Assembly: GCF_016342405.1 (NCBI RefSeq)
Contig: NZ_JAEINN010000001.1
Location: 186,001 to 250,000 of the forward strand
Source of the DNA: Maridesulfovibrio ferrireducens
GTDB lineage: Bacteria; Desulfobacterota; Desulfovibrionia; Desulfovibrionales; Desulfovibrionaceae
Direction of reading: 5' to 3'
DNA: 64,000 nt
The first letter of the stretch is position 1. Each line of letters begins with the position of its first letter. The notes under the pieces are model-generated. The model was not told the origin of the DNA. It was given only the letters and a program-made list of their open reading frames with translations, and ran no database searches. Positions 20,571 to 23,251 of this stretch are shown in pieces. The position numbers were made by a program, and so were the translations under genes.

Positions 20571-21296
20571 TTATCCGGTGCTTTGAAAAATAAGCATGAT
20601 TCCCATGAAGACAAGCAGAATCATGACCATTCTTTTATATAATCCTTCAGAAACCTTTCCTGAAAGAGTGTGACCAAGGTAAACTCCCAGTTGAATAGGA
20701 ATAATGGAAGCTAGAAATAATTTGAGGACATACAGGGTGGTCAAGCCGCTTAAAAGATGTCCTGTTGCTCCCATTACCGCTGCTGCCAGAAAAAAACCGG
20801 ACAGCGTGGCTTTTAGCTCATTTTTTTTCCAACCCATAAGGGAGGAATAAATTAAAGTCGGTGGTCCGCCGGCACTTATTGCTGCGGTTATAGATCCTGT
20901 TAAAAAGCCTGCAAGAAGTCCCCATGCGGGTTTTAATTTCAGGGCAACAGGTTTGACGAACAGGGAATATGTTGCGTAGCCCGACACAAGGATTCCGAGA
21001 AATAATGTTATAATATGACCGTCCAGTTCTTTCAGGACGAGAGTCCCGAAAATTGATCCGGGTACACTGCCTATAATCAGAGGCATAATTTTTTTAAGGT
21101 CAAGGCTTGAGCGTAAATTGAGACACATTCTGAGGGTGATGGTAACCCCGCAGAGAGTGCAGACGGCAACAGCCGTTTTAATGTCGATGATAAAAGCAAG
21201 AAGTGGCATTGCAATAAGTGCTGAACCGAAGCCGGTTAAACCTTGCAAAAAGCCTGAACTTAGAAGTATTAATGGTACAGCTATAAAAGGTGTCAT
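20571..21296 (-). CDS. TauE/SafE family membrane permease
   Basis: A 241-residue protein with about eight hydrophobic segments in two similar halves (GFGSALIAMPLLAFI in the first, GSITAAISAGGPPTLIYSSL in the second), the layout of TauE/SafE (DUF81) transporters. Members export sulfite, sulfonates or other anions; substrate here is unknown. In a sulfate or sulfonate user an exporter of sulfite or sulfoacetate is a natural guess, but it lies away from the cysteate-like locus. No clear ribosome site is visible before the ATG. It is flanked by fxsA downstream and by the candidate selenoprotein upstream. Confidence 0.88.
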   Translation of the reverse strand: MTPFIAVPLILLSSGFLQGLTGFGSALIAMPLLAFIIDIKTAVAVCTLCGVTITLRMCLNLRSSLDLKKIMPLIIGSVPGSIFGTLVLKELDGHIITLFLGILVSGYATYSLFVKPVALKLKPAWGLLAGFLTGSITAAISAGGPPTLIYSSLMGWKKNELKATLSGFFLAAAVMGATGHLLSGLTTLYVLKLFLASIIPIQLGVYLGHTLSGKVSEGLYKRMVMILLVFMGIMLIFQSTG

Positions 21297-21367: not shown

Positions 21368-21592
21368 TTAACTTTTGAGTAGAACTAAAAGCGTTCTATC
21401 TTCACGAAGGGGTGTTTCTGTTATCACTTCGGCATATTTTACCTTTGCGATAATATCGATTCGTTTCCGTTGGTCTGAAGAGATTTCAACAGAAAGCGTT
21501 GTGCCCGATTTGAGATCTTGAAGACGAGAACTCGTCTCTATGAAGCCTGCTCAGCAATCGGCCCAGCATATGACTGTTTCATTTGTGTTCAT
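21368..21592 (-). CDS. candidate selenoprotein: 74-codon frame with in-frame UGA (unknown family)
   Basis: On the minus strand an ATG at 21592 opens a frame reading MNTNETVICWADCUAGF, where U is a TGA at 21551-21553, then continues 60 more codons without a stop to TAA at 21368-21370. There is no ATG, TTG or well placed GTG after the TGA, so the downstream part has no start of its own. It reads like a small beta-rich domain (SGTTLSVEISSDQRKRIDI, then IAKVKYAEVI). The TGA sits in a C-W-A-D-C-U motif, a plausible thiol/selenol redox site, and is followed by a hairpin meeting published bacterial SECIS criteria. It lies 54 bases after rpsA and 71 before the TauE gene. No Shine-Dalgarno is visible. 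Alternatives are a decayed gene or a chance open frame. The family is not recognised. Confidence 0.55.
21521..21538 (-). promoter_or_regulatory. SECIS-like hairpin downstream of in-frame UGA
   Basis: Beginning 13 bases after the UGA, GAGACGA pairs with UCGUCUU (six Watson-Crick pairs and one G-U) around the tetraloop GUUC. There are 19 bases between UGA and the loop and G is its first base, in line with bacterial SECIS rules (loop 16-37 bases from UGA, a G among its first two bases, short upper stem). Function is inferred. Confidence 0.5.
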
Positions 21593-21611: not shown

Positions 21612-21641
21612 AAGGCCGGATTCCGTAAAGAATCCGGCCTT
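21612..21641 (-). promoter_or_regulatory. 12-bp hairpin just after rpsA, no U-tract
   Basis: AAGGCCGGATTC and its exact complement surround a six-base loop, six bases beyond the rpsA stop. On neither strand is it followed by a run of T, so it looks more like a 3'-end stabiliser or weak attenuator than a full terminator; transcription could continue into the small UGA-containing frame and tauE. Confidence 0.7.
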
Positions 21642-21646
21642 GAATA

Positions 21647-23149
21647 TTATTTCTTGTTCTTCATAGCTTCTTGGAGTTTCATTCCAAGAAGTGCTCCAAA
21701 TCCGCTGGAATCACCGGAAGTGGTGATTTTAGGCTCGGATTTACGGGGAGCTGACTTTTTAGAAGCAGCAGGTTTTGCGTACTTCTTCCAGTCGATATCT
21801 TCTTTAGGATCACCTGCGTTCAGGGTTACCTTACGATCAGCTAAGTTAAGTTCTTCAATGAGAAGTTTAACTTTTTGACCGGGAGTCAGTGCTTCCAGTT
21901 CGCTTTTCCTTTCTGAACGGGAGATGCGTGACATTGGTAGAAGTCCGGTTATGCCGGGAGCAAGGCTCACGAAAATTCCGAATTCAGCTTTGTTTTCAAC
22001 AACGCCTTCTACTTCTGTTCCGACTTTGAAAGAGTCTGCCGCGTCAAGCCATGGATCACCTTCAGCATCTTTCATGCTGAGAGCAATACGGCGTTTGACT
22101 GGGTCAAGATCTTTGATCATGACAGAAACTTCCTGTCCGGGAGTGACTTCATCAGCTGGTTTGTGGACGCGTTTGGTATAACTCATTTCAGAGATATGAA
22201 CGAGACCTTCGATACCGGGAGCGATTTCAACAAATACACCGAAGTCTGCGCAACGGGCAACTGTTCCGGTAATTTTGTCGCCGGCTTTAAACTTGTCACC
22301 GATTTCGTCCCAAGGATCAGCCTGAAGCTGCTTGAGAGAAAGACCGATTTTAAGTCCTTTGCCGTCTTTGCGAGGTTCAATGGAAAGGACTCTGACAGTG
22401 ATTTTATCACCGGGCTGAACTACGTCTTCAGGTTTAGCCGAACGTGACCAGCTAAGTTCTGAAACGTGAACCATTCCTTCCACACCGGGAACAAGTTCCA
22501 CAAATGCGCCGAAGGCCATGAGTTTGGTAACTTTACCCTCAAGAACTGTTCCAGGCTCAACTTCCGCGACAAATTTCTCGCGGAATTTTTCCTGTTCAAC
22601 TTCAAGAAGAGCTCTGCGGGATACAACTACGTTGCGACCGCCTTCCTCAAACTTGATGACCTTAAAGTTGTGTGTATCACCCACGTAATCTTCGGGGGTT
22701 TCCACGAAAGTTGCGTCAATCTGGCTGACGGGGCAGAACACCTTGCGGTGCATCATGCTAACTCTGAAACCGCCTTTGCAGGTTTCTGTAACCTTACCTT
22801 CTACCGGAACGCCGCTTTCGTATGCTTCACGAAGCATATTCAAGCCGCCTGCGCCGGACATGGCTTTGGATAGGCTGATTCCATTGCTGTCGATGGAGAT
22901 TACGTAGAGTTCTACGGAGTCTCCGTCTTTAACAGTCAGTTCGCCTTCGGGATCGAGGAGCTCGTCACGGTTAACTATTCCATCGACTTTGGATCCGGTG
23001 TCTATGAACACGGAATCCTTAGTGATTGAAATTACAGTTCCTTTAACTAGATCACCGACTTGAAGGTTGTCGTTTGATTCTGACTGAAAAGCTTCAAAAA
23101 GTTCGGCAAAGTTTTCTTCGCCATTTGCTTCCAAGTTTTGCTCGGACAT
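21647..23149 (-). CDS. rpsA: 30S ribosomal protein S1 (five visible S1 domains)
   Basis: About 500 residues. S1 domains are seen near residues 25-95, 105-175, 190-265, 275-350 and 360-435; domains 3-5 carry the strong RNA-binding pattern FGAFVELVPGVEGMVHVSEL, FGVFVEIAPGIEGLVHISEM and FGIFVSLAPGITGLLPMSRI. A lysine- and alanine-rich tail (PAASKKSAPRKSE) ends the protein. S1 helps mRNA binding to the 30S subunit. Escherichia coli S1 has six domains and 557 residues, so one fewer here. The frame extends 31 codons upstream, but AGGAG lies eight bases before the ATG at 23149, giving MSEQNLEANGEENF. Confidence 0.95.
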   Translation of the reverse strand: MSEQNLEANGEENFAELFEAFQSESNDNLQVGDLVKGTVISITKDSVFIDTGSKVDGIVNRDELLDPEGELTVKDGDSVELYVISIDSNGISLSKAMSGAGGLNMLREAYESGVPVEGKVTETCKGGFRVSMMHRKVFCPVSQIDATFVETPEDYVGDTHNFKVIKFEEGGRNVVVSRRALLEVEQEKFREKFVAEVEPGTVLEGKVTKLMAFGAFVELVPGVEGMVHVSELSWSRSAKPEDVVQPGDKITVRVLSIEPRKDGKGLKIGLSLKQLQADPWDEIGDKFKAGDKITGTVARCADFGVFVEIAPGIEGLVHISEMSYTKRVHKPADEVTPGQEVSVMIKDLDPVKRRIALSMKDAEGDPWLDAADSFKVGTEVEGVVENKAEFGIFVSLAPGITGLLPMSRISRSERKSELEALTPGQKVKLLIEELNLADRKVTLNAGDPKEDIDWKKYAKPAASKKSAPRKSEPKITTSGDSSGFGALLGMKLQEAMKNKK

Positions 23150-23251
23150 TCTCTGTACTCCTGGGGGGAAAGTCATCGCGACAGATGTGTTTTTTAGTGC
23201 CGCGAACATTGGGAACCTAACGGTAATGGAAGCATTTTTCAAACGATTTAT

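Follow-up and report, generated by a model that had tools for sequence, protein, structure and literature searches.

A short reading frame on the minus strand of a 64,000-nucleotide (nt) stretch of the Maridesulfovibrio ferrireducens genome (contig NZ_JAEINN010000001.1, positions 186,001 to 250,000; this whole stretch is hereafter the window) raises the question of whether a TGA codon that directly follows a cysteine (Cys) codon is a stop or is read as selenocysteine (Sec). Our analyses indicate that the locus almost certainly encodes a genuine small selenoprotein, which appears to represent a new TusA-like bacterial selenoprotein family. A first-pass annotation, made from the sequence of the window, had proposed a selenoprotein with a thiol/selenol redox site; the selenoprotein is borne out by 83 of 83 genomes, by selection, by the hairpin and by the decoding machinery, whereas the redox site is just one possible function. 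That annotation did not extend to the TusA-like fold, to the family's spread across the phylum or to the absence of Cys forms among its members.

The frame was located where it had been described, with an ATG at 21592 on the minus strand, the motif CWADC, the TGA at 21551-21553, 60 more sense codons and a TAA at 21370-21368. With TGA read as Sec (U), the product is MNTNETVICWADCUAGFIETSSRLQDLKSGTTLSVEISSDQRKRIDIIAKVKYAEVITETPLREDRTLLVLLKS, and its features are as follows.

21368..21592, minus strand: coding sequence of the predicted 74 amino acid (aa) TusA-like selenoprotein, TGA as Sec and TAA as stop (frame, homologues with one in-frame TGA, purifying selection)
21551..21553, minus strand: Sec-UGA codon (Sec14), immediately 3' of the Cys13 codon at 21554-21556 (Cys-TGA pair in 74/74 loci tabulated)
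21566..21568, minus strand: Cys9 codon, kept in the class clade only (51/52 class members)
21521..21538, minus strand: hairpin of the Sec insertion sequence (SECIS) type, 6-7 pairs, apical (A)GUUC loop with the loop G at 21531 (pair counts, AGT codon constraint)

Conservation of the Frame Beyond the UGA Codon

Homologues were sought in samples that are parts of larger groups, with profile searches at E<=0.001. A tblastn search with the window frame (E<=0.01) found matches in 21 of 58 related genomes, a count that includes the window genome. The profile built from these 21 members (A1) identified the gene in 52/297 genomes of the class, spread over 14 of 53 genera; a profile of 52 rows (A2) identified it in 23/395 genomes of the phylum (the window genome and 22 others); and a profile of 42 of 74 rows (A7) identified it in 18/55 genomes of a second class (that of genome G480), 9 of which were new. 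The resulting 83 genomes (52 class, 22 phylum and 9 second class) each show exactly one internal stop, which is always TGA. Of these, 74 members (52 class and 22 phylum) were extracted and read, and the Cys-TGA pair is present in every one, followed by 59 to 76 sense codons. A second tblastn match in genome G013 (L022, E 0.0055), which contains two TGA codons and one TAG, was discarded before all counts.

Past the TGA (codons 14-55), the nonsynonymous difference (pN) is lower than the synonymous difference (pS) in 119 of 120 pairs of the 16 genus members (medians 0.39 and 0.75), compared with 83/120 and 46/120 pairs in the two other frames. The frame after the UGA is under purifying selection; a stop with no conservation beyond it, which would have refuted a selenoprotein, is not what the homologues in the 83 genomes show. 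Plasmids gave zero matches in a tblastn search with the window protein, and two matches of one DNA motif in viral contigs were rejected, both being riddled with stops in that frame.

The Hairpin Downstream of the UGA Codon

The hairpin described earlier, GAGACGA-GUUC-UCGUCUU in the window, is present after the UGA, and 19 bases separate its loop G from the UGA. The criterion for bacterial SECIS elements places the loop 16-37 nt after the UGA, with G as the first or second loop base (PMC13188914), and the window, genus and phylum sets agree with it. The window copy is unremarkable alone when its 39-nt stretch is compared with synonymous-codon shuffles (z -0.68, p 0.22), and no SECIS family in Rfam matched at E<=5, where two chance-level matches only were obtained. 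Across the loci read, such shuffles give a folding p<0.05 in 39/74 (33/52 class and 6/22 phylum), compared with 8/74 for the next 13 codons.

In the genus, with positions counted from the U of the UGA, 99.0% of the stem (16-21/28-33) is paired; exchanges are of the A-U/G-C and C-G/U-A kinds, and 13 cells show a double change. The stem of the 22 phylum members is shifted to 15-21/26-32, with 98.1% paired and double changes seen at 5 of its 7 pairs; class members outside the genus adopt either register, by folding. The covariation score and the percentage paired were reached by 0 of 500 shuffles in both the genus and the phylum sets. The serine (Ser) codon of the loop is AGT in 16/16, 33/34 and 11/11 Ser codons (60/61 together), where 1.0, 2.9 and 0.9 would be expected (about 5 in total). 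Hence the hairpin stands above chance because of its conservation over 83 genomes, its compensatory changes and its codon choice, and its pairing is maintained via compensatory changes in two distant clades. One locus (L051) differs in stem and loop: its loop codon is TCC, not AGT, and the stem after the UGA is different, longer and much stabler (-26.4 kcal/mol).

Selenocysteine Machinery

The absence of the SelB pathway had been named as a result that would refute the proposal; the window genome contains SelA (3.8e-163), SelB with winged-helix domains close by, and tRNA-Sec (80.1 bits; ARAGORN anticodon tca). SelB exceeds the cut-off in 17/17 genus genomes, 251/297 class genomes and 50/52 class members. 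It nearly always accompanies the gene yet is not sufficient for it, since one genome of the same genus (G016, locus L172) has SelB while the gene is simply absent from its rpsA-TauE interval. Decoding of the UGA as Sec by SelA, SelB and tRNA-Sec, steered by the hairpin just downstream, is a prediction that the sequences strongly support.

Sec Without Cys Forms in the Sampled Genomes

The first-pass annotation had looked to homologues with either Cys or Sec at the UGA. Sec aligns there in 83/83 member genomes, whereas Cys occurs in 0/83 (three profile searches), an outcome odder than expected. Sec was entered in the profiles as Cys, so that Cys forms should have scored at least equally; none turned up. 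A strict pattern scan of contigs (CWxDCCxGF) gave 49 stretches, of which only one, L023 in a named record, was confirmed; this apparent Cys relative proved spurious, the match lying out of frame inside another open reading frame (ORF), presumably an iron-transport permease. The upstream Cys9 position carries Cys in 51/52 class members; at this position 19 of the 22 phylum members have tyrosine and 3 have Ser.

Homologues with Cys in place of Sec, which searches usually look for although a selenoprotein need not have them, are lacking across the 83 member genomes. Unless Cys forms exist outside the sampled genomes, this family of Sec-UGA members would be a counter-example, and it points to selenoproteins that methods based on Cys/Sec pairs would throw out. 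It also offers a small protein for studying what Sec can do that Cys cannot.

Relationship to TusA and to Known Selenoproteins

The fold is very probably TusA-like: a structure model of the class clade predicts a beta-alpha-beta-alpha-beta-beta arrangement, alike in fold and length to the TusA/SirA-like carriers (PF01206, including YeeD of the YeeE-YeeD thiosulfate uptake complex). As in TusA, helix 1 begins with a Cys at the carrier position, with equal spacing from this Cys to the glycine (Gly) before strand 2. In the alignment to TusA the carrier Cys corresponds to Cys13 and the first proline (Pro) of CPxP to Sec14, which by alignment and predicted structure adjoins Cys13 at the start of helix 1. 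Where TusA has C-P-x-P, the new family has C-U-x-G, and some phylum members have C-U-x-A/P: the second Pro is replaced by Gly in 52/52 class members, and in the 22 phylum members the position holds Gly (15), alanine (6) or Pro (1). The new family also differs from TusA in being made, as predicted, through UGA decoding. If Sec replaced Pro, as this alignment suggests, Sec could be gained at a site that did not hold a redox Cys.

The first-pass annotation recognised no described family, and our searches concur. Scans of 43 of the 74 members (21 class and 22 phylum) against NCBIfam release 20.0 gave chance-level matches only; at E<=1, these comprised three weak families for A1 (best 9.7e-4, a TrkA model), each hit by a single member, and likewise three for A3 (best 0.021). 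Among the 119 selenoprotein families tabulated in 2026, no TusA/SirA-like or DCU entry could be seen, and the text mentions neither SirA nor TusA (PMC13188914). Titles and abstract starts of the open-licence literature on TusA/SirA and selenoproteins mention no Sec-containing TusA/SirA protein.

Several known proteins share single characteristics with the family. The one TusA match in the window genome is a 209-aa frame with CPQP, which we take to be YedF; it differs from the new selenoprotein in having CPxP, in lacking Sec and in being longer. The YedF-type "SirA-like" protein of selenium metabolism likewise ties a TusA/SirA domain to selenium use (PMC2432076). The CU-motif selenoproteins (viz. 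HgcA, SaoL, SaoC, MbdU, and KCU-star) share adjoining Cys and Sec, but they are listed under other domains (PMC13188914), and none of their NCBIfam models matched in the scans of the 21 class and 22 phylum members. The deep-Sep families DG, DW, and DF are also hypothetical selenoproteins of sulfate reducers lacking a known domain; set apart by description only, they are reported to have Cys-containing homologues, whereas the new family shows none (PMC12013277).

A search of 398 genomes from the phylum of a further centre, G716, gave 24 weak matches (1e-5 to 6.5e-4). The 10 of these that were read carry ETCPMTF, in which a Cys aligns with Cys13 and a Pro stands in place of Sec, and are therefore TusA-like non-members. 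These sequences (L162-L171) belong to a small TusA-like family with ETCPMTFVKVKL in genomes around this centre.

Gene Neighborhoods

The genes flanking the selenoprotein in the window had been given as rpsA and a TauE-type gene, and Pfam S1 domains and TauE matches bear this out.

21647..23242, minus strand: rpsA, upstream neighbor (Pfam S1, 6.8e-72)
20571..21296, minus strand: TauE/SafE-family transporter, downstream neighbor (Pfam TauE, 1.1e-31)
21612..21641, minus strand: hairpin resembling a terminator, located between the stop of rpsA and the start of the selenoprotein gene (window sequence; similar inverted repeats by eye in 16 genus loci)

The arrangement of rpsA upstream and a TauE-type ORF downstream is found in 16/16 genus loci. 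In 33 of the 36 other class loci, as judged by ORF clusters, the upstream neighbor is of the nucleotide-sugar-dehydrogenase type and the downstream one of the futalosine-hydrolase type (menaquinone synthesis); family names were assigned to these types in three loci (L074, L018 and L058), Pfam named the downstream ORF alone in L051, and the L074 locus also contains UbiE, MqnA/MqnD-type and prenyl synthase genes. In 6 of the 22 phylum loci (L089, L096, L099, L100, L101 and L106) a LysR_Sec_metab gene (NF040786) lies directly upstream; all six exceed the NCBI cut-off, and the gap to the selenoprotein gene is small except in L100 (~140 nt). A cluster of 7 phylum loci has ORFs for a CbiK-type sirohydrochlorin cobaltochelatase downstream, the two tested (L110 and L112) falling below the model cut-off. 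The strongest clue to function comes from the LysR selenium regulator; none of the other named neighbors is a selenium gene.

Possible Functions and Alternative Explanations

As a tentative best guess, we infer that the protein could well function as a Cys-Sec carrier of selenium or sulfur. The Cys-Sec pair would accept selenium or sulfur in reduced form, binding it as a persulfide or selenosulfide, and then pass it on, possibly to SelD; alternatively, the protein may report selenium status. It is also quite possible, although we hold this slightly less firmly, that the family is an obligate-Sec one: a TusA-like carrier would have gained Sec at a former Pro position, with no swap for Cys in any member found, and Sec would serve selenium handling itself. 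Since selenoprotein synthesis itself needs selenium, such a carrier would be made, and so be present, only when selenium is available.

A number of results weigh against this account or bear on the TusA relation. The hhalign comparisons to TusA are weak (E 8e-4 and 7e-4, probability 24 and 26%), and against column shuffles A2 is only narrowly above the best shuffle (22.0 observed, 19.8), while A3 scored 22.3 (best shuffle 16.6) and A7 22.5, with one of 50 shuffles, unexplained, at 134.2 and the next at 17.4. In Pfam, the window protein has no TusA match (best Levi_coat, 0.036), and BRCT_2 weakly matches 6 members of the phylum set compared with 3 for TusA; the best TusA match among members is 2.1e-6, and two members (L081 and G002) score 22.2 and 26.7 bits, the gathering score being 28.6. 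Foldseek gave no match at E<=0.001 (best 2.8e-3, YeeE-YeeD), and PDB sequence searches with A2 and A3 gave nothing meaningful, TusA not being among the matches. In the genus, the pairs with double changes (2) and the further pair types (5) are not above shuffles (272 and 499 of 500), because 3 of the 6 pairs never vary. The 52 class loci adjoin rpsA/TauE (16) or mostly menaquinone-type genes (33) rather than selenium genes, and the carrier function leans on the fold and on a neighbor seen in only 6 of 74 loci. Two draft genomes (G029 and G251) carry the gene with SelB matches only below the cut-off. This may be due to assembly gaps in these drafts or to the gene having been left behind.

It is rather unlikely that the same selenoprotein is instead a thiol-selenol redox protein, in which Cys13 and Sec14, joined in the class clade by Cys9, would form and break a selenenylsulfide and so reduce persulfides, disulfides or peroxides. 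The Cys adjoining Sec and the third Cys four residues before Cys13 in 51/52 class members are consistent with this, and a 2026 review takes most uncharacterized selenoproteins to serve redox functions (PMC13188914); however, Cys9 is missing in the 22 phylum members, and the predicted fold is TusA-like, no thioredoxin-type fold being among the 50 structure matches listed. A role in binding or chaperoning soft metals or metalloids via the vicinal Cys-Sec pair is improbable: the CU-motif entries in the 2026 table include HgcA, the MerB-like SaoL and MbdU (PMC13188914), and a CbiK-type gene lies downstream in both loci tested, but such neighbors cluster in only 7 of 74 loci and no metal genes were seen in the other contexts annotated. 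That the locus is no selenoprotein at all, only a 13-codon leader ending at the UGA before a chance open frame or decayed gene, is scarcely credible. In its favor, the genus lacks a Shine-Dalgarno (SD)-like 4-mer and has a terminator-like hairpin directly upstream, the window hairpin alone is not unusual, and SelB misses the cut-off in two draft member genomes; against it stand the single TGA in 83/83 genomes, the protein-level selection after it, the compensatory hairpin changes and the AGT constraint.

Upstream Region of the Genus Loci

The lack of an SD sequence, noted earlier as a weak point, holds for the genus, where 0/16 loci have any of four SD-like 4-mers before the start; such a 4-mer occurs in 26/36 other class loci and in 13/22 phylum loci. 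The genus loci thus combine a terminator-like hairpin directly before the start with no SD-like 4-mer. Upstream of this hairpin in the window, the listed rpsA ORF begins at a TTG, and its true start is probably further in.
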